A DNA stretch of 23,580 nucleotides, taken from positions 1-23,580 of IMG/VR virus record IMGVR_UViG_3300024432_000067. One strand, written 5' to 3'. Position numbers and translations under genes: made by a program. Source of the DNA: a virus. The first letter of the stretch is position 1, and each line of letters starts with the position of its first letter. The notes under the pieces are model-generated. The model was not told the origin of the DNA and ran no database searches. It was given only the letters and a program-made list of their open reading frames with translations. Of the stretch, positions 821 through 23,392 are shown one piece after another.

Positions 821-915
821 GATGATAAAGGGTGAGTCAGTCTGTGTTGACGGGGAGAATTACAGGAGAGTGAAGTGAAACCTTATCAGGCAATATATGC
901 TGAAAGGAGAGGAGA

Positions 916-1107
916 ATGATATTAGCCAGTGCTGTAGAACTTGCCAGATTTGCGGAGAAGAATAATTGGCTCTTGATAGAGAAAAGTGGTGAAGAAGACT
1001 TGAAGATAGAGAATGATTATTTGCGCTACCTAACACCACAGGGAAAAACAGTTGTTGTAAACTTCTGGATAACTGGTGGTAGTATTAAGCAGATTTGCAC
1101 GATGTAG
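916..1107 (+). CDS. Hypothetical 63-aa protein
   Basis: ATG preceded by a GAAAGGAGAGGAGA ribosome binding site. The product has an N-terminal helix (residues 1-25) and then a short beta-rich half ending in VVVNFWITGG. I do not recognise a family. It lies in the same direction as the helicase and the NinG-like gene, so it belongs to the early module. It has no cysteine pair, no membrane segment and no signal peptide. Confidence 0.6.
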   Translation: MILASAVELARFAEKNNWLLIEKSGEEDLKIENDYLRYLTPQGKTVVVNFWITGGSIKQICTM

Positions 1108-5473: not shown

Positions 5474-5640
5474 CTCTTCTTCCTGAGTCTATCTAGCTTT
5501 CTGAGATGGACTGGCCGGGGCCTTCGCTGTCCATGTTCCCACTTGGATACCGTGTCTTTACAAACACCCATTATCTTAGCAAACTCTGGCTGTGTTAGCA
5601 TGCGCTTCTTCCTGAGTTTCTGTATCTCTTTTGGTGTCAT
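5470..5640 (-). CDS. XRE-type helix-turn-helix protein, 56 aa
   Basis: ATG preceded by AAAGGAGGTAAG. The product is almost only a DNA-binding domain: residues 4-12 EIQKLRKKR, 15-28 LTQPEFAKIMGVCK (helix 2 and turn) and 29-36 DTVSKWEH (recognition helix), then a very basic tail (GQRRPRPVHLRKLDRLRKKR). The layout matches Cro/XRE regulators in which the recognition helix ends in W-E-x-G. It is too short for a dimerisation domain beyond the tail. A role in controlling the minus-strand block or the divergent control region is plausible but inferred. Confidence 0.8.
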   Translation of the reverse strand: MTPKEIQKLRKKRMLTQPEFAKIMGVCKDTVSKWEHGQRRPRPVHLRKLDRLRKKR

Positions 5641-6983: not shown

Positions 6984-6994
6984 TAGCCTGTCAA
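6966..6994 (-). promoter_or_regulatory. Sigma70-like promoter for the minus-strand block
   Basis: On the minus strand, a perfect TTGACA (6989-6994) is followed by a 17-base spacer and TAGACT (6966-6971), four of six matches to the -10 consensus. It lies in the 115-base gap between the organiser-like gene and the rest of the block, 34 bases before the ATG at 6932. Confidence 0.6.
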
Positions 6995-7655: not shown

Positions 7656-7679
7656 CCATTAATGTTACCAAGTTGTCAA
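7650..7679 (-). promoter_or_regulatory. Leftward promoter, -35 clear, -10 weak
   Basis: Minus-strand TTGACA at 7674-7679. With an 18-base spacer the -10 is TAACCT (7650-7655), only three of six matches and inside the palindrome, so it may need an activator or be tightly repressed. Confidence 0.45.
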
Positions 7680-14491: not shown

Positions 14492-17400
14492 ATGGTATTA
14501 AGTACTAAGAAACCAGGTTGGATGCTTGAAGAGGCTAAGAAAAGGCGAGAGGAAGAAAGCAAGTTAGGTAAGACAGTTCACACTTTTGATTATTGGTATC
14601 AGCAACTTGCGATAGAAATAAGGCCTAAACCTCCAGTAAAAGAGCCTGAAGAACCCATAGAGGAACCAATACTTCCAAGTCTTCGTGCTCGTGGATTCAT
14701 TGAGAGAATAGGGCGAGAACCTTTACCTCCCATTGAGGAACCGAGAGAAGAACTCCCTGAAGTAGCGCCCACTGAAGAAATAACAGATGAAGACCTTGAG
14801 ACTTTTGTTGACGAGATAGAGATTCAGGGCAGGACTCCTGAACTTGAGATGTTACTGGTAGAGATGGGGGCTACTCCTGAAGATGTCGATGAGATATTTG
14901 GTGTGCCAGCGGAAGTGACAGATGAGGAATTTCTTTATCAAGAATACCTCCGTACTGGTGGGAAACTAGATGTTAGTGCATGGAGAGTAGTTGGAAGTCC
15001 CATCCGTCCTGAAGATGAGAGGGAAGAAGTGGGGGTGAAACCACGAGCAACAAAATACCTTGAAAATCAGTGGGGAGAATGGTTAGTAAAAGAAGTCTCT
15101 GAAGGCCTTAATAAATCATACATGCTTGTAACAAATGTTGACATAGAGGATTATATTGTAGACCATCCTGATGTATGGGAGCGTGTTGAAGCATGGCAAA
15201 AGGAGTTTCCTGCATTAACTTTAATGGATGAGGTTGGTATTTTGGGGGGGAGCCTATTGATGCTCCCCCAACAATGGGGTGCAGCAATTCTACAAGCAAC
15301 TCAGGGCTTTGGGGGAGCAAGTGTTGTAGACCCTGATTGGGCTGACAGGTTTATAGAGGATGCCAATAGAGAGATGAATGAATTTGTCAGCGAGGTTTCT
15401 ATAAAATATAAGGAGAGACCATCGCTACTGGGCATATCTCCTGCGGATATGGCATCGGTCTCTCGTAATATTGCTTATTCCCTAACTTCAATGGGGGCAG
15501 GTCTTATTGTTGGCTTACCGACAGCCCTAATTCCGGTGCCTGGAGCAAGGGTTGCTGCTTGGACAGCAGGAACGGCTGCATCAGGAGCCGTTGCTTATCA
15601 AATGACTACTTATCAAATAACGCAAACATATTTGGAGTTAATGAATGAAGAAAAGATAGCCAGAACAGGTACGGGATTAACTAGGGAAGAAGAGGAACAA
15701 CTAAAAGATGATTTCTTTGACAAGGCAAGGAAGTATGGTCTGTGGGAAGCAGTCCCAGAGGCTCTTAGTAATCTTGCCTTTGCAAAGTTATTAACTGGCC
15801 CTTTAACTGGGATGGTTGGTAGGTCAATAGCTTCTCGGATTGTTGTTAAGGTAGGTGGAATCTATGGTGAGGAGTTGTTGACTGAGACAATAACGCAGAA
15901 GGGGCAGTCGGATATTGAGGTGGAGGCTGGATTGAGAGAGGGGAGAATAAGTTGGCAAGAGGCATTCAAAGAAGTAGCTCCTCAAACGTTCCTCTTAACA
16001 ACGATAATGGGGGGTCTTGGGCAAGTAACTGTATCCTCGGTTAATAAGATAAAGGCATCCTTAAAAAGTGAAATAGGTGAAGAACATCCTTTATTTAAGG
16101 AAATAAATGAAAACATCACAGAGGATATTATTCCTACTTCTACAGAACCAGAGTTAGCATTGCCTGAAGAAGTTATCACTCCAACAGAAGTTCCAACTAG
16201 AGTTCCTCCAACAAAACCACCTTTAACTGAGGCTCTTATTAAAGAAGCTGATGAGATAGTTACTAAAGCGGAAGCTATTCAACCTGAAAATCCTTCTGTA
16301 ATTGAGTTCAGGAGGTTGGTTAATGAGGCACAAGGAGCAACTGGTGAGGTTCAAAGGCAGGCTCTTATCAAGATGGAAGCACTTGAGGATGAGATAAGAG
16401 CAATAGTTCCTGAAGAACTCCCCACAGTAGAACCTGAAGTAGTCCCAACTAAAGCAGTAACCCCTACAAATTGGCAAAGAGCTTTAACAGAAGCTGATGA
16501 GACTATGGTTTCATTAAAAACTGGGCAACTTCGTCCTGATTTAACAGTAGATACGCAAGAATATCAGGATTTTATTGACAGTGAAATAACTAGAATAGCC
16601 AGTAAATATGGTGTGCCTGAAGCAATCTTGCGGAAACAAACCTTGTGGGAACCGAGTCCTGCGGGAGTAGAAGAAAGGATACCACTTACTGAGGCTGAAA
16701 TAGATGAACTAGTTGCTAGTGTTGCCAAACCCCCTGAAGTTGCAAGAGGTGAAGAGGGTTTCGTTAGGTTGCCTGGGGAACCAGAACCTGTTAGAACTTT
16801 ACCAGTGGAAGAAGTATCTAAGTTAGAGACTAGAATACCCATAGACCTCATACGGAAAGATGAACCAGAAACGATTAGAAGACTAACTGAGGAAATTCAA
16901 AGGGAAGGCATAAAGGAACCGATTGTAATAAGAATCCGAGAAGATGGCTCTCAAATAGTATGGGATGGAATACACAGACTTATAGTAGCACAAGATTTAG
17001 GAATTAAGGATATTCCTGTTAGATTCATTAGTGATGAGGGTTTAGGAGTTAAGCCTCCAACAGAACCCGAACCTCCGACTCTTCCTCCTGGATTAAAAAA
17101 ACCAATTGAGTCACTATCTACAGCAGAATTAAAACAACGTATTGAAAAGGCTACTCCTTATAGGAAACTTTACCAAGCTGAATTAGATAGGAGAGCAAAG
17201 CCTGAAATTGTTGAAGCACCCCCAGTAGAAGAAGTTGTCTCTGATGATAAGGGGGTAATAACACCTCCACCTGATGAGGTTTTACCAAAGGCTGTTGAAG
17301 ACAATACTCCTATGATACAGGATATTGGCGTAAAGGAAAGGGTTAGAGGAAGTCGCCACGTCTTTGACAAAATGGGTGTATATGAGATATGGGAAGGGAT

Positions 17401-20400
17401 TACTGAAGCCGAGGTGCTAGTATCTGAGGCTAACACAGTCTTCAATAAAGAAGTAGATGCAATTACTAAGCGTGTTGGTAAGGATAAGGAACGCTGGGGT
17501 TTAATCTTTGATGACGCTAATGAAAAAGGTAGCGTAGTGGGACTTACTTTTGAAGAAAAGAGGGCTGTAAATTATATCAGAAACTGGGCAAATGAATGGG
17601 CAGAAAAAAAGAACTTGCCTCAAGAGAAGAGAATAGAGGATTATATCCCTCACCTTTTTGAGCAGGAAATGATTGACCAGATTAAAGAACGGGATGGTAT
17701 ATCGCCTGAAATTGCTGGCGTATTAAACGAGAGAGTATCAAAGAAAATCACAGACCCATTTCTTAAGGAACGTCTAGGTGCTTTAGGCTTTATACGCGAC
17801 CCCTTTAGAGCTATGAAGGCTTATAACGCTGTTTCTAATAGGGTTCTTTATTATGAGCCATTTCTACAAAAGATAGCAGCTATAGCCAATGATACTTCTA
17901 TGCCCAAGAGGTCAAGGGAATATCTTAAAGATTACTCTCGAAGGATGACAGGTGAACCATCTAAACTAGACCAGGATATAAACAAGTCTCTTGCTGAAGT
18001 TGGTGAGGCAATAAGGAAATTGCCGGGTGGCGAGGGATTGGCTAATCTTCTTACTAAAGGTAATCCCTCTGGCTTGGCTGCCTATAATCTTACGAGTGCT
18101 CTATATACTCTTTGGTTAGGTTTTAAGGCTACGTCTGCTATTAGAAATCTTAGTCAGCATGGGTTGATAATTGGTGAAGTCGGGCCAATTCACTTTGCCA
18201 ATGGAATAAGACTAAGGATTACTAAAGAGGGGCGAGCAGCGTTAGAGAAGTCCCTTGTTCTAAGAGGACGCAAGATGGCGTTCACAGCAGGTCTTGATGC
18301 TTCTTTTGCTGATAATTGGGCAGGCAAGTTTAGGGAAACTGCGCTATGGATGTTTAGGTATGCTGACAAGCAAAATGTGTCTGATGCCTTTCTTTCTGGT
18401 TACTCTGAAGCCAAGTCTTTGCTTCCTGATGCTGACCCATCGGTGTGGATAAAGCGTGCTGATGAGGTCGCCGCTGATACCCAGTATTTATATACCAAGA
18501 TGAACAGTATGGCCATCGCTCAAAATGCTCCTGGCAGGGTATTCTCTATGCTCACTACGTGGACTGAAAACTGGATTGAGTTGACGGGTAAGTGGATAAC
18601 ACGTAGACCATCAAAGGTTTACTCTGAATATAATGAAGCTACAGGTGTAGATGTATCTGGTGCAAATTGGTCTACTACATACAAAGCTGTTGCAATGTAT
18701 CTTATTATAGCAGCCATCGGGTATATTCTCAAGGAAAAGACTAGATTGAAGGCTCTTGAATATACAGGTATTACATCACTCAAATATATGGCTGGGGTGG
18801 TTGGTGGGGAGTTCCCAGCATTAGAGGCACCTGGGGCTGTTGCTGACCTCATAGCAGGCGTATTAACTCAAGATGATAGGTTGATGAAGCAGGGTTGGAA
18901 TCAGGTAAAGAATATCTTTACTCCTGGAGTAATAAGGCAGATTATGGGGGTAGCTTTGGGCGATAAGGACTGGTTGACATTATTCTTTTACCTTGAAGGC
19001 AAGAGTATAGAAATTAAGAGATTAAGGGATAAATGGAAGAAGGGATGGGAGGGCTATGAGGATTTATCCGATGTGTTAATTAGGGGCAAGGAGTATCCTA
19101 CTCTTACTAAGGGTCAAGCACAAAGCAAATGGAGAGAAGATAATCCCTTTTTAGAAGCACAGATGTTTGTTGTTGGCCAATTCACGACACTATCCTCAGA
19201 AGAAGCACGGCAAGGAGTATCCTACCTTATTGAGACAAATAAGTTAGACCCTGAACTAATAGAGGGTTATGAGAAGGTCTTTGGGATAGATACCTCAACA
19301 GAACTAGCTCCATTTCAAAAGCGGATAGGCAACCTTGAGAAGCTGGTAATAGGGGAAGAAGCTGAATACTTTGATATGGGTCGCTTTGCTGGTGAAGTTC
19401 ATAAGTGGGTAAACACTCAAGGTAGGTCTAAGGTTATGAGAGACGGACACCCCTTAGCGGTAGAACTGCTAAATGCTGAGGACTTATGGGAACCCTATTT
19501 TAACCAAGAGTCTGCTGACCAGAGGAAATTAGATAGGCAGAGAGACCCTGAATTAGAGGGCCAGTTATATTTCTGGGGCAAGGTTCAATCCTTTGAAAAC
19601 CCAAAGAGTGCTGAGATTCTTTTGAGTTTGATGAAGAAATATAATATACCTCCAGAGGCTATCAATGCTTTTCAGCAAGACCCTCAGAAGTATGATGATT
19701 TGTTCACACAGAAGTTTGAGTTAGAAAAGAAGTCGTTTGAACTGGATACTCTGTATGACAACTATGGCAATACTGAATCTGATGTTTATATTGAAGACCT
19801 GGAGGAGCGCAAGGAATCAAGAACTAAACTCAAAGAAGATAACCCTGAGTGGGTAGCTGACCTAAGACGCATTGAGGCCATTGATAATGAGGCTGATGAG
19901 GGAACTATTGAAAGTTGGGTAGAACGAGGTAAAACGGTAGATGAATTTGGGGCTGGTAGTTCCGAAGGTAAGGTCTGGTTGCTTGACAATCCTGAAGCGC
20001 ATAAATGGGCTTTGGAGCAGAAACTACTTACCGATGATGGTTCAGATTGGAATGAGAATGTTTTGAGGATAAATGTCCAATGGGCAAAGGAAGATGATGA
20101 ATACAATGCCCTCCCTGTAGAAGATAGGGAAGTTTACCTTGATAAACATGAGGGCTATCGCAAGGACAAGCGGAGGCGGGATGGTTACAGTAAGGGAATA
20201 ACTGAAATAGAAGACTATGTAGCTTTTTATGAACTACCGACTAAGGGGTATTGGCAGGAGAGATTTTTAGTTGAACATCCTAAATTAGCTAAAGAGATGA
20301 ACAGGGATATTCCAATTAAAGTTCTACCAGAAGAATATGATATATTGCGCGAAAAGGAAGATAAGACTCCAGAAGATAAACTCCGAATTACTGCCTATGA

Positions 20401-20782
20401 AAAGGAAGTTCCTGAAAATCAACTTGATACCTATGTCTCCTACTACTCAATAGAGAAACCCGAAGACTACCCAAAGAACACAACATACTGGGAAGATGAT
20501 TGGTTTTTAGTGGAACATCCTGACTTCTATAAAGAGGTCTATATCGGAGTCCTTGGGAATCAGGAAAGGGACTTTACTAAAGTTCCAACACGTGAGGTTG
20601 GAGCCAAATATATACATTACAAGACACTAACAAGCCAGATGGAGAGAGACCAATACCGTCTAGATAATCCTGACTTAGATGAGTGGGGTGTCTCAGTGGG
20701 GATATGGTCAGTTACTATGAGTGAGAAGAGACGGAGGTTAGGTTTAACACCTGGTGAAAGATTTAGGGAGTCTCTTAAATAA
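14492..20782 (+). CDS. Giant 2096-aa polyvalent/internal virion-type protein with ParB-like domain
   Basis: ATG after a TAGGAG site; one uninterrupted frame. Order: 1-200 acidic, proline-rich linkers; 335-370, 433-463 and 500-517 hydrophobic Gly/Ala-rich segments; 560-770 helices and Pro/Glu linkers; about 775-848 a ParB-type domain (RIPIDLIRKDE ... WDGIHRLIVAQDLGIKDIPV, with the G-x-H-R box); 960-1530 a large helical domain with hydrophobic stretches near 1196-1220 and 1393-1417; 1540-2096 repeats of a short NP/HP motif. Giant proteins fusing enzymatic and linker domains and packed in the head for ejection are known in phages (polyvalent and internal virion proteins). Position between portal and capsid fits. 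Its activity and ejection are inferred, not shown. Confidence 0.75.
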   Translation: MVLSTKKPGWMLEEAKKRREEESKLGKTVHTFDYWYQQLAIEIRPKPPVKEPEEPIEEPILPSLRARGFIERIGREPLPPIEEPREELPEVAPTEEITDEDLETFVDEIEIQGRTPELEMLLVEMGATPEDVDEIFGVPAEVTDEEFLYQEYLRTGGKLDVSAWRVVGSPIRPEDEREEVGVKPRATKYLENQWGEWLVKEVSEGLNKSYMLVTNVDIEDYIVDHPDVWERVEAWQKEFPALTLMDEVGILGGSLLMLPQQWGAAILQATQGFGGASVVDPDWADRFIEDANREMNEFVSEVSIKYKERPSLLGISPADMASVSRNIAYSLTSMGAGLIVGLPTALIPVPGARVAAWTAGTAASGAVAYQMTTYQITQTYLELMNEEKIARTGTGLTREEEEQLKDDFFDKARKYGLWEAVPEALSNLAFAKLLTGPLTGMVGRSIASRIVVKVGGIYGEELLTETITQKGQSDIEVEAGLREGRISWQEAFKEVAPQTFLLTTIMGGLGQVTVSSVNKIKASLKSEIGEEHPLFKEINENITEDIIPTSTEPELALPEEVITPTEVPTRVPPTKPPLTEALIKEADEIVTKAEAIQPENPSVIEFRRLVNEAQGATGEVQRQALIKMEALEDEIRAIVPEELPTVEPEVVPTKAVTPTNWQRALTEADETMVSLKTGQLRPDLTVDTQEYQDFIDSEITRIASKYGVPEAILRKQTLWEPSPAGVEERIPLTEAEIDELVASVAKPPEVARGEEGFVRLPGEPEPVRTLPVEEVSKLETRIPIDLIRKDEPETIRRLTEEIQREGIKEPIVIRIREDGSQIVWDGIHRLIVAQDLGIKDIPVRFISDEGLGVKPPTEPEPPTLPPGLKKPIESLSTAELKQRIEKATPYRKLYQAELDRRAKPEIVEAPPVEEVVSDDKGVITPPPDEVLPKAVEDNTPMIQDIGVKERVRGSRHVFDKMGVYEIWEGITEAEVLVSEANTVFNKEVDAITKRVGKDKERWGLIFDDANEKGSVVGLTFEEKRAVNYIRNWANEWAEKKNLPQEKRIEDYIPHLFEQEMIDQIKERDGISPEIAGVLNERVSKKITDPFLKERLGALGFIRDPFRAMKAYNAVSNRVLYYEPFLQKIAAIANDTSMPKRSREYLKDYSRRMTGEPSKLDQDINKSLAEVGEAIRKLPGGEGLANLLTKGNPSGLAAYNLTSALYTLWLGFKATSAIRNLSQHGLIIGEVGPIHFANGIRLRITKEGRAALEKSLVLRGRKMAFTAGLDASFADNWAGKFRETALWMFRYADKQNVSDAFLSGYSEAKSLLPDADPSVWIKRADEVAADTQYLYTKMNSMAIAQNAPGRVFSMLTTWTENWIELTGKWITRRPSKVYSEYNEATGVDVSGANWSTTYKAVAMYLIIAAIGYILKEKTRLKALEYTGITSLKYMAGVVGGEFPALEAPGAVADLIAGVLTQDDRLMKQGWNQVKNIFTPGVIRQIMGVALGDKDWLTLFFYLEGKSIEIKRLRDKWKKGWEGYEDLSDVLIRGKEYPTLTKGQAQSKWREDNPFLEAQMFVVGQFTTLSSEEARQGVSYLIETNKLDPELIEGYEKVFGIDTSTELAPFQKRIGNLEKLVIGEEAEYFDMGRFAGEVHKWVNTQGRSKVMRDGHPLAVELLNAEDLWEPYFNQESADQRKLDRQRDPELEGQLYFWGKVQSFENPKSAEILLSLMKKYNIPPEAINAFQQDPQKYDDLFTQKFELEKKSFELDTLYDNYGNTESDVYIEDLEERKESRTKLKEDNPEWVADLRRIEAIDNEADEGTIESWVERGKTVDEFGAGSSEGKVWLLDNPEAHKWALEQKLLTDDGSDWNENVLRINVQWAKEDDEYNALPVEDREVYLDKHEGYRKDKRRRDGYSKGITEIEDYVAFYELPTKGYWQERFLVEHPKLAKEMNRDIPIKVLPEEYDILREKEDKTPEDKLRITAYEKEVPENQLDTYVSYYSIEKPEDYPKNTTYWEDDWFLVEHPDFYKEVYIGVLGNQERDFTKVPTREVGAKYIHYKTLTSQMERDQYRLDNPDLDEWGVSVGIWSVTMSEKRRRLGLTPGERFRESLK
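19127..20707 (+). repeat. Degenerate NP/HP repeat in the giant protein
   Basis: The motif [W/R/F]-x-[E/L]-[D/E]-[N/H]-P followed by an acidic/aromatic helix recurs at about residues 1545 (WREDNPFLEAQ), 1778 (KLKEDNPEWVAD), 1828 (WLLDNPEAHKW), 1923 (FLVEHPKLAKEM), 2004 (FLVEHPDFYKEV) and 2054 (YRLDNPDLDEW). Spacing is 50 to 230 residues, shorter toward the end. Confidence 0.6.
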
Positions 20783-20793
20783 GGAGGTTAAAA

Positions 20794-20982
20794 ATGCCAG
20801 CAAAGTCAAAGGTACAACAGCAAGCTGCGGGTGCTGCACTGTCAGCAAAAAGGGGAGAAAGGAAAGTATCTTCTCTGAAGGGTGCAGCTAAAGGTATGTA
20901 TATGTCTATGACAAAAGAAGAACTGGAGGAGTTTGCTGGAACTAAGACCAGAGGTTTGCCCCGAAAGGTAAAGAAGAGTTAA
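20794..20982 (+). CDS. DUF3008-like small basic protein, 62 aa
   Basis: ATG with AAGGAGGTTAAAA. The product MPAKSKVQQQAAGAALSAKR ... MTKEELEEFAGTKTRGLP matches my memory of the DUF3008 pattern (start MPAKSKAQQ, middle SMTEEELEDFA, end TKHKGLP). Members are small, basic, lysine-rich proteins found in phages and bacteria with no known role. The spacing of blocks agrees over the full length, so the family call is good; the function is open. Confidence 0.8.
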   Translation: MPAKSKVQQQAAGAALSAKRGERKVSSLKGAAKGMYMSMTKEELEEFAGTKTRGLPRKVKKS

Positions 20983-20986
20983 CACT

Positions 20987-21358
20987 ATGAGTGAGGTATA
21001 TATTAAAAACGAAGGATTGTTTGTTACACTTTCTTGTAGTAATGTTGAGCCTAATGAAATGGGCAGGAAACAATTCTATGAGGAACAATCTTTAGGTGTT
21101 AAAGCTTTGAAACCAGACCCTTATTATTTATCTTTAGTAGAAGGTAAAACTAACTTTGATTTCCTCTTCACTGAATATAAGAAAATGTATCTTTCTGGTG
21201 AGTGGTGGGGATTCTTACTTCTATGGAAGGATTGGGAAGGCAAGCGTTGGGTATTGCCCCATTTATGTAAATGGTATGTTAAAATCACAGAGAGAGAACT
21301 TCCTGAATGGTTGCACAAAGAGATAACTTATGAGGCACTACGGGAAGAACTCTTTTAG
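20987..21358 (+). CDS. Hypothetical 123-aa protein
   Basis: ATG four bases after the DUF3008-like stop, with a weak site (AAGAGTTAAC). The product has a beta-rich start (GLFVTLSCSN) and an aromatic middle (SGEWWGFLLLWKDWEGKRWV). No known motif; not membrane-spanning as the Trp-rich part contains charges. Unrecognised. Confidence 0.6.
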   Translation: MSEVYIKNEGLFVTLSCSNVEPNEMGRKQFYEEQSLGVKALKPDPYYLSLVEGKTNFDFLFTEYKKMYLSGEWWGFLLLWKDWEGKRWVLPHLCKWYVKITERELPEWLHKEITYEALREELF

Positions 21359-21536
21359 GGGTAGCTTGACAACTAAAAACAATTGTGATAACGTAAAAAT
21401 AGAACTAACCAGAACTCAACAGGTTTTCTTGGAATTTTGTAAAGAGTTTGGTTGGGGTAAATTAGAAGTTACGGTTGTAAGAGGTGAGCCGGTCGCCAGT
21501 AAAGAGCTTGAACGGACTCACCGACACGATGCTTAA
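21330..21536 (+). CDS. Hypothetical small protein (68 aa, or 56 aa from TTG)
   Basis: The ATG at 21330 overlaps the previous gene by 29 bases with a weak site. A TTG at 21366 follows AGGGG just after the previous stop and is a fair alternative. The core VKIELTRTQQVFLEFCKEFG, then WGKLEVTVVRGEP is a helix-strand unit I recall from small phage proteins of unknown role. A hairpin-forming sequence (GGTGAG ... CTCACC, 21483-21522) lies in its last codons. Confidence 0.6.
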   Translation: MRHYGKNSFRGSLTTKNNCDNVKIELTRTQQVFLEFCKEFGWGKLEVTVVRGEPVASKELERTHRHDA

Positions 21537-21546
21537 CAATTGAATA

Positions 21547-21715
21547 GGTTTGCTGCGGTGTAGGTGCATATGTCTGGTGACTGAAGGTGAGAGTCCTTCT
21601 TGGAGCCAGTAATCGGCAGCCAGTGAGGGGTTGAAGCGTAATCAGCCAGCAAACCAGGCGAATCTAGGAAGATAGCCGAATTTGATTCCTTCGGGAATTG
21701 GGTTCGGCTTTTTTT
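21547..21715 (+). ncRNA. Structured RNA of unrecognised class with terminator
   Basis: A 195-base gap between genes (21537-21731) has no open frame but strong RNA structure. GGTTTGCTG (21547-21555) pairs perfectly with CAGCAAACC (21647-21655), closing a 91-base domain. Inside are CTGG/CCAG (21574-21577 with 21606-21609) and GAAGG/CCTTC (21583-21587 with 21595-21599, loop TGAGAGT), and three AGCCAG copies (21604, 21618, 21644). It ends in a long UUCG hairpin and T run. The GGTGAGAGTCC loop recalls a box in cobalamin riboswitches and in group II intron domain I, but the rest of those families is absent. Class and role are unknown. Confidence 0.6.
21674..21715 (+). terminator. Strong intrinsic terminator with UUCG loop
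   Basis: A 16-bp stem (21674-21689 with 21694-21709, four of the pairs G-U) closed by a TTCG tetraloop, then seven T (21709-21715). A ribosome binding site for the next gene follows within 20 bases, so scaffold and capsid need read-through, antitermination or another promoter. Confidence 0.85.
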
Positions 21716-21731
21716 ATTAAAAGGAGGAACT

Positions 21732-22520
21732 ATGGAAACGGGCGTAAAAGAAACCCCTCCAGGCACTATGCCAGAAGCAGAAGGGCGTAAGGGAATATCC
21801 CCTGATGAAGGGCGTAAAGAGATATCCTCTCCTGAAGAAGGCAAAACCCCTGAGAAGGAAAAAACTGTATCCCCGGAATCCCCGGAAGAAGAACCCTTAC
21901 TTTATAGCCAGAAACAGTCTGATGCTCTAATTCTTGCTGCCAAGTCTGAAGATGGCAGGAAGTCGGCTGAACGTGAAAGAGAACTTACGACCCTAAAAGA
22001 GCAGATTCTCTCGAGGGAAAACGAACTGGAGGACGTTCAGGCGGAAATAAAAACCCTTGAAGAACAGATTAATGACCTTACCAGTGGTGACCCGAAGAAG
22101 TTCGACCTCGTGAAGATGGGTAGGGATTTACGGGAAAGGGAACGTGGCCTGAAATCTAAAATATCTAACTTTGAAAGCAAGGAAACATCGTTCCTTGAAA
22201 GAGAAAAGCGGGTGAACTCCTTTGAGTTGGACATCCTTATAGAAACCGTTGCGGAGAAATATGAGGATGGCGATTCTGGCAGGTTGAAAAAGGCAATCGG
22301 TGTTTTTGAGAATCCGACTGAGGAGCAGGTAGGCACTATCGCTGAGATATTGTTTAGTACCAAGGCAAAAGTGTCACCCAAGACCTATTCTGGTAAAACT
22401 GATGGGGGTGGTGGGTTAATTCATACGAGAGCTGACATAGCTAAGCGAGACTATTGGGACAAAAATAAGGAAGACATCCTGAAAGCTCAAGCTGAACCAG
22501 GTCAGCCTCGAATAAAGTAG
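21732..22520 (+). CDS. Capsid scaffolding-like protein, 262 aa
   Basis: ATG after AAAAGGAGGAACT. Acidic, low-complexity N-terminus with a short repeat (GRKGISPDE, GRKEISSPEE, residues 19-37), then coiled-coil helices (about 76-118 and 130-165, e.g. LTTLKEQILSRENELEDVQA), then a compact C-terminal part ending DYWDKNKEDILKAQAEPGQP. A soluble, acidic coiled-coil protein immediately before the major capsid gene is the standard place and shape of a scaffold, which guides shell assembly and leaves before or during packaging. Scaffolds share little sequence, so this rests on context and composition. Confidence 0.75.
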   Translation: METGVKETPPGTMPEAEGRKGISPDEGRKEISSPEEGKTPEKEKTVSPESPEEEPLLYSQKQSDALILAAKSEDGRKSAERERELTTLKEQILSRENELEDVQAEIKTLEEQINDLTSGDPKKFDLVKMGRDLRERERGLKSKISNFESKETSFLEREKRVNSFELDILIETVAEKYEDGDSGRLKKAIGVFENPTEEQVGTIAEILFSTKAKVSPKTYSGKTDGGGGLIHTRADIAKRDYWDKNKEDILKAQAEPGQPRIK

Positions 22521-22531
22521 TGAGGTAATAT

Positions 22532-23392
22532 ATGACATTAAGTGGAAGAACCCCAACTGGGGCTGATACCGCAGGTCATGTGCCTGAAATATGGAGTCAG
22601 CAAACTATAGATGAAGCTGAGAAGGAACTGGTTGCCTGGGATGCAACCGACCATAGCTGGCAGAAGGACTTGGTAAAGGGTGACACTGTGAACATCGGTC
22701 TTATCAACAATGTAGACGCTACCGAAGTGGTCGTAGGAACTAAGGCTGCCAGTCTGGATATAGCTACAGGCAGTAAACTCCAACTCATCATGGACCAGTG
22801 GTTTGAAGCCCCAATAGATGTGGATACCATGACAGTCAAGCAGTCTCAGACAAACTGGGCTACTAAGGCTCGGGGAAAGGCAGCTGAGTCCATTAGACGG
22901 AAGGTTGATTCTACTGTTTGTGCCCTGTACTCCAGCCTTAATACTTCGATTGGTGTAAAGGGTGTTGACGGAGATGAGATAACTGATGACCTTTTGCTTG
23001 AGCTCAAGGAGATACTGCTTGAGGCAGATATTCCAATGGACAACGATTTGTTCTTGATTTTTGACCCATCCGGTCTAACTGACATGCTGAAATACGATAA
23101 GTTCGTTGCTGCACAGTATGTCGCTATTGGAGCCGTTAATAATGGGCAGATTGGGAAAACACCTATCTATGGTTGCAATGTTCGAGTAACCAATAACCTG
23201 ACGGCAGCGACTACAGGTGCCTATGCAGCGATGGTACACAGGTCGGCCATTGCCAGTGCTCTTCAGATAGAGAGTCCCTGGACAAAAGATTTTGAAGAGC
23301 TACATCAGGTTAGATTCCAGCATGAGGCTCTTTGGGGTGTCCTGGAGGTCAGAGACACCTTTGGCATCTGCTTCTTTACCAGGAAAGCGTAA
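22532..23392 (+). CDS. Major capsid protein (probable HK97-fold)
   Basis: 286 aa, starting 12 bases after the scaffold stop, with a TGAGGTAATAT site. The N-terminal arm (VPEIWSQQTIDEAEKELVAW) is followed by KGDTVNIGLINNVDATEVV, a strand pair common in this capsid group, then the spine-like helix (KARGKAAESIRRKVDSTVCA), a domain with DNDLFLIFDPSGLTDMLKYD, and IYGCNVRVTNNLT near the end, closing in LEVRDTFGICFF. Capsid proteins of this fold form the icosahedral shell around scaffold. Length, order after scaffold and this block order support the call; the exact family is not assigned. Confidence 0.85.
   Translation: MTLSGRTPTGADTAGHVPEIWSQQTIDEAEKELVAWDATDHSWQKDLVKGDTVNIGLINNVDATEVVVGTKAASLDIATGSKLQLIMDQWFEAPIDVDTMTVKQSQTNWATKARGKAAESIRRKVDSTVCALYSSLNTSIGVKGVDGDEITDDLLLELKEILLEADIPMDNDLFLIFDPSGLTDMLKYDKFVAAQYVAIGAVNNGQIGKTPIYGCNVRVTNNLTAATTGAYAAMVHRSAIASALQIESPWTKDFEELHQVRFQHEALWGVLEVRDTFGICFFTRKA

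Follow-up and report, generated by a model that had tools for sequence, protein, structure and literature searches.

The best-known unit in which a promoter, a short non-coding transcript and a strong intrinsic terminator are placed ahead of phage late genes is the lambda pR'-6S RNA-tR' unit, which is opened by Q. The sites belonging to this system are a factor-binding element in the promoter and, early in the transcribed sequence, a -10-like pause element (PMC6606751). In HK022, antitermination is achieved by RNA alone, the put RNA of about 70 nt and two stem-loops, which acts on the polymerase in early operons (PMC9378689). Units with a promoter and a terminator can also be extra elements, absent in relatives at the same place, as in the case of the ant moron of P22-like phages, and morons can still influence downstream late expression, as described for epsilon34/P22 (PMC2629481).

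The DNA analyzed here (the window) spans 23,580 nt, positions 1 to 23,580 of record IMGVR_UViG_3300024432_000067. An earlier note had placed a structured noncoding RNA in the gap between late genes and the scaffold and capsid genes (21537 to 21731). The sequence features it described are found there, but its boundaries are too short, since the promoter evidence puts the RNA start near 21401. The reading we tentatively prefer, while holding it somewhat short of probable, is that of a self-contained promoter-leader-terminator unit before the scaffold-capsid operon, acting as a transcription gate like lambda pR'-6S RNA-tR'; most likely, the unit would be a fresh instance of this known kind of gate. 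A host-type extended -10 promoter (21366 to 21394) would start a mostly non-coding, folded leader RNA of about 315 nt (21401 to 21716), an intrinsic terminator would stop most polymerases with the release of a short RNA, and scaffold and capsid would be made on read-through, whether by leakage, through a change that depends on the leader or with the help of an antitermination factor of the phage. The gene order, the terminator and the promoter motif with its statistics are read from the sequence, as is the lack of any other sigma-70-like promoter; the start and stop of transcription at the unit, and regulated read-through with its agent, are what we infer.

As in lambda, a promoter, a short non-coding transcript and a strong intrinsic terminator lead into late genes. 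However, the lambda unit precedes lysis and all late genes, whereas the one described here precedes scaffold and capsid; its leader is predicted at about 315 nt, and no Q homologue, Q binding element or -10-like pause site was identified, with nothing obvious by eye for the latter in positions 21401 to 21425. Among those early and small proteins that were scanned against Pfam and PHROGs, no Q-like or other antitermination protein was recognized, which counts against the gate; Q proteins are diverse. Given the promoter and terminator, the reading that fits best is the one suggested in the earlier note, a leader acting in cis or a target of antitermination. The likeness to HK022 put lies in a phage leader RNA made of stem-loops near a promoter and upstream of a terminator, although, judged by size and description, the predicted RNA is about four times longer and has several domains. 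If the unit works as proposed, it would provide a concrete gate on structural gene expression for an uncultured phage group, and its promoter motif could be used for mapping transcription units in that group. It also illustrates how a structured RNA called from raw sequence can come down to a strong terminator and an overlooked promoter.

Gene order and coding potential

The phage genome is complete, at 39.8 kb, in another record (IMGVR_UViG_3300009488_000011, approximately 39.8 to 39.9 kb), whose shared sequence is identical to the window. The ends of that record overlap by 123 nt, indicating that the genome is circular or terminally redundant. On the plus strand, the order is terminase, a portal-like gene, a giant gene of 2,096 aa, a DUF3008 gene (20794 to 20982, a known family), two orphan frames, the gap, a scaffold-like gene and the capsid gene. 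The scaffold-like gene (21732 to 22520, plus strand), assigned by its place ahead of the capsid gene and its counterparts in related phages, encodes a coiled-coil protein of 262 aa and is preceded by an AGGAGG ribosome-binding site at 21723 to 21728, 6 nt past the terminator. It is followed by the major capsid gene (22532 to 23392, plus strand), a PHROG 267 head protein (E = 2e-19), in line with the placement of the gap given in the earlier note.

The giant gene (14492 to 20782) has an N-terminal third conserved in six other phages (46 to 84% identity), while the remainder varies between phages and its L021 version reaches 3,165 aa. Elsewhere in the sequences, an exact 35-nt repeat (window 884 to 918 and L012:8225-8259) terminates at the start codons of two different small genes (916 and L012:8257) and includes a shared ribosome site, so that duplicated regulatory leaders are possible.

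The gap was described as carrying no open frame, which holds for the sense strand, where none is open across 21537 to 21731; an antisense frame of 103 aa is present and is probably due to chance. Of the two orphan frames, the first (20987 to 21358) has no homologues that we could find. The second, a doubtful frame of 68 aa (21330 to 21536, plus strand), overlaps both the preceding gene and the promoter. It gave no match in Pfam, PHROGs, NCBIfam, phages or the collected loci, and none that was credible in plasmids. Past the promoter, the only candidate start is a TTG at 21429, which would open a 35-aa frame with a weak ribosome site. Since the C-terminal part of the 68-aa frame resembles a small protein, this frame may be a decayed gene.

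Promoter and terminator

The predicted promoter begins eight bases past the stop codon of the preceding gene and reads TTGACA-N14-TGA-TAACGT on the plus strand, that is, a TTGACA box (21366 to 21371), a 17-nt spacer ending in an extended -10 TG, and TAACGT (21389 to 21394), with a predicted transcription start near 21401. To the motif TTGACA N13-15 TGNTANNNT belong three copies in the genome, compared with a mean of 0.08 in dinucleotide-shuffled genomes (a 36-fold excess), and none of 60 shuffled genomes reached three copies. Both other members of the class (with TTGACA and an extended -10 TGGTA) lie on the minus strand directly before genes: one at 7679 to 7650, 35 nt before the start codon of gene 7614, and one at 6994 to 6966, 33 nt before that of gene 6932, and both genes bear AGGAGG-type ribosome sites. 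In L010/L005, the motif is kept before the homologue of gene 7614 with a changed spacer. Together, the motif statistics and placement argue that transcription would begin at the promoter at 21366 to 21394.

This promoter scores 11 in a sigma-70-like promoter scan. No second promoter of that kind was found in 21395 to 21725, where the best score was 7.5 compared with a genome mean of 9.0 per stretch of equal length. Because scores in this interval fall below the genome mean, an RNA carrying the scaffold ribosome-binding site should have to cross the terminator.

The terminator (21669 to 21716, plus strand) consists of a 16-pair stem (21674 to 21709) with a UUCG loop (21690 to 21693), followed by a U7 tract (21710 to 21716), just as the 16-bp UUCG terminator of the earlier note was described. 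With a hairpin of -21 kcal/mol (z = -5.75), it surpasses every other terminator-like site of the complete 39.8-kb genome, the rest being -19.5 kcal/mol or weaker on either strand. Four neighboring pairs of the stem are wobbles (three U-G, one G-U), and the stem therefore can form in full in plus-strand RNA only. Its end lies 15 nt from the scaffold ATG. A promoter upstream and a strong terminator directly before the scaffold ribosome-binding site are best fitted by a terminated or attenuated leader.

The same anatomy would also suit a trans-acting phage small RNA of about 315 nt, freed at the terminator and pairing with host or phage mRNAs or binding a protein. Its own promoter, a strong terminator and a well-defined fold with repeated AGCCAG motifs are what such an RNA would show, but it has no homologues and no conserved seed, and the position directly before a ribosome-binding site suits a cis element better; we regard a small RNA as distinctly unlikely. 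As for the preferred gate, upstream late transcription might leak through the terminator, which would speak against it.

The junction in related phages

An alignment of the giant gene yielded six further phage contigs, and one of the capsid yielded L026 (72% identity), whose contig stops before the junction; alignment of the portal against GTDB genomes gave no relative. Counterparts of the scaffold-like gene are present in L017, L019, L020 and L021. The scaffold follows the giant gene after 27 nt in L021 (capsid 58% identical), after 65 nt in L017 and after 18 nt in L020, and these three phages have no counterpart of the three small frames or of the RNA, so that everything in the 950 nt between the giant gene and the scaffold (the DUF3008 gene, the two orphan frames and the RNA) is missing. 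In L019, the gap at the same junction measures about 540 nt and is unrelated.

These observations bear on the main rival of the gate, a moron-like insert between the upstream late genes and the scaffold, which would carry its own promoter, then a small RNA or a tiny gene, and at the end a terminator as insulator. Scaffold and capsid would then be transcribed from an upstream late promoter past the terminator, and the leader would have no specific role. The absence of the 950-nt stretch at the same junction in L017, L020 and L021, together with the unrelated gap in L019, is as expected of an insert, and a unit that opens with a promoter and closes with a terminator is built like a moron, as in the ant unit of P22-like phages. 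However, the enclosed frame lacks relatives as well as a convincing start past the promoter, which leaves no convincing gene inside, the DUF3008 gene being located upstream of the promoter, and one relative carries a promoter of the same class immediately ahead of its scaffold. For these reasons we consider a moron unlikely, while still taking it seriously.

That relative provides what we regard as the most telling point. In L017, a promoter of the same class lies 34 nt before the scaffold gene, showing that a scaffold operon in this phage group can have its own promoter; this suggests that the promoter at 21366 to 21394 belongs to the scaffold operon as well. In the window phage, the scaffold ATG is 337 nt further on, past a terminator. 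L020 and L021 lack promoter and leader, and L017 has the promoter without the leader, so the group can do without such control, which counts against the gate. We also considered whether a leader with a terminator is a conserved trait of distant capsid relatives, and rejected it: when all gaps up to 2.5 kb ahead of the capsid were considered, 2 of 67 loci had a terminator-like site, both more than 2 kb away.

Fold and family of the predicted RNA

The minimum free energy and centroid folds of the predicted transcript (21401 to 21716, plus strand, the interval from promoter to terminator) are almost identical, so that the RNA is predicted to have a single clear fold, in favor of the gate. They include a 5' hairpin (21405 to 21455), a hairpin formed by the inverted repeat GGTGAGCCGGT / ACGGACTCACC (21483 to 21522, pairing probability 1.0), which lies upstream of 21537, and a central junction domain (21545 to 21667) closed by a 10-pair helix (21545 to 21554 with 21658 to 21667). 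Within this domain are an apical hairpin, GAAGG-TGAGAGT-CCTTC (21583 to 21599, pairing probability 0.93 to 0.99), with the GGTGAGAGTCC loop, and three AGCCAG copies at 21604, 21618 and 21644 (21604 to 21649), exactly the number previously reported. The perfect 9-bp closing helix of the earlier note, GGTTTGCTG (21547 to 21555) with CAGCAAACC (21647 to 21655), is an exact inverted repeat, but it is not the dominant closer: it is favored until the terminator is complete, and in the finished transcript the overlapping 10-pair helix wins, leaving the 9-bp helix (21547 to 21655) with a probability of about 0.1 once the terminator has been transcribed.

Much of the folding strength of the transcript comes with the terminator, the z score being -3.3 with it and -1.5 without it. 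Without the terminator, z was -1.5 for 21401 to 21668, -1.5 for 21537 to 21668 and -2.4 for 21546 to 21657; hence, by these folding models, the leader appears only modestly better folded than shuffled sequence and not exceptionally structured, which counts against the gate. When all sampled 112-nt stretches of the genome are ranked by energy, the central domain falls in the best 0.5%, or in the best 2% after GC correction. In dinucleotide shuffles of 21537 to 21668, a perfect 9-bp inverted repeat arose in 1.35%, a 6-mer occurring three times in 2.25% and both in 0.05%, whereas 5 of 1,983 real 132-nt windows of the genome had both; the combination of the 9-bp repeat and AGCCAG is unusual, though chosen after the fact.

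These modest values, the five real windows with both features, the failure of every search to find a relative and the resemblance of the 21330 to 21536 frame to a decayed small gene would all agree with a terminator that is functional alone, the remainder being unconstrained spacer or decayed coding sequence and the repeat and AGCCAG copies chance. The promoter statistics, which favor a start of transcription there, speak against such a spacer, and we give it little credence.

A structured phage leader RNA of a new class, deciding read-through into scaffold and capsid through RNA-only or ligand- or protein-sensing attenuation, would have two states. Read-through would combine the 9-bp repeat with a possible antiterminator hairpin overlapping the terminator base (GGC..ATCT-AGGA-AGAT.GCC, 21657 to 21677, plus strand, predicted), while the stop state would combine the 10-pair helix with the terminator. 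Until the 3' arm has been transcribed, the former pairing is about 1 to 2 kcal/mol less stable than the free minimum, and at full length the difference is 6 to 9.5 kcal/mol. An equally stable fold occurs in 32% of shuffled leaders, which is not significant, and the two-state candidate therefore carries no weight. No antiterminator pairing rose above chance in comparison with shuffles, which also counts against the gate; the leader can pair with the terminator's 5' arm at -13.0 kcal/mol, a value that 131 of 500 shuffles also reached. Pairing of the leader with the scaffold ribosome-binding site was likewise no better than in shuffles. A new class has a slim chance, and since the RNA is an orphan, claims of one would need homologues or RNA data.

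Blastn of the region against phages and plasmids gave matches at chance level only. The exact GGTGAGAGTCC core was found in IMG/VR in the same phage alone, and loosened cores matched only coding DNA or dissimilar sequence, that is, by chance. A near-exact hairpin search in 85k genomes gave one match, inside a helicase-like coding sequence, and a covariance model of the central domain recovered only itself from 90 sources (about 0.91 Mb). With no counterpart in relatives either, no source of the RNA outside this phage lineage is known.

Rfam 15, at gathering and relaxed thresholds, contained nothing relevant in the window, in agreement with the earlier opinion that no class could be named. Scanning the region alone, as had been proposed, gave as the sole match at E up to 10 group-II-D1D4-4 (RF02003), with 9.0 bits and E = 9.4, 40 bits below the gathering score of 49. 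The GGTGAGAGTCC hairpin, which we take to resemble part of group II domain I and of the cobalamin riboswitch core, shares with RF02003 one hairpin with GGUGARAGUCC. This likeness and the weak alignment would speak for a group II intron remnant or a cobalamin riboswitch that has diverged, but the score is far under the cut-off, the Rfam scan of the region gave neither a domain V nor, at E up to 10, a cobalamin match, and reverse transcriptase (PF00078) is absent from the complete genome, as had been noted for the window. Such a remnant is already largely refuted and extremely improbable. A search for TnpB gave none that was convincing, and no tRNA was found.

The phi29 pRNA is likewise a structured phage RNA tied by position to head genes, and a virion or packaging RNA of its type had been proposed. 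Nothing supports this: no Rfam 15 pRNA match was obtained, the terminase lies 12 kb off instead of adjoining, and ordinary terminase genes are present. The RNA thus belongs to no known family, and there is no evidence for a new one or for a packaging RNA.

Further features were seen elsewhere. An inverted repeat of about 104 nt (75% identity) links window 5519 to 5621 with L012:8703-8600 within the same genome, and L012:7654-8058 is a phage gene for S-adenosylmethionine decarboxylase (AdoMet_dc in Pfam, E = 3e-18), an enzyme of polyamine synthesis. The gap at L012:454-604 carries a G-rich/C-rich hairpin with a T run after it on the minus strand, and an untranslated region closed by GACGGG/CCCGTC precedes the gene at L012:604, with a z of only -1.46.
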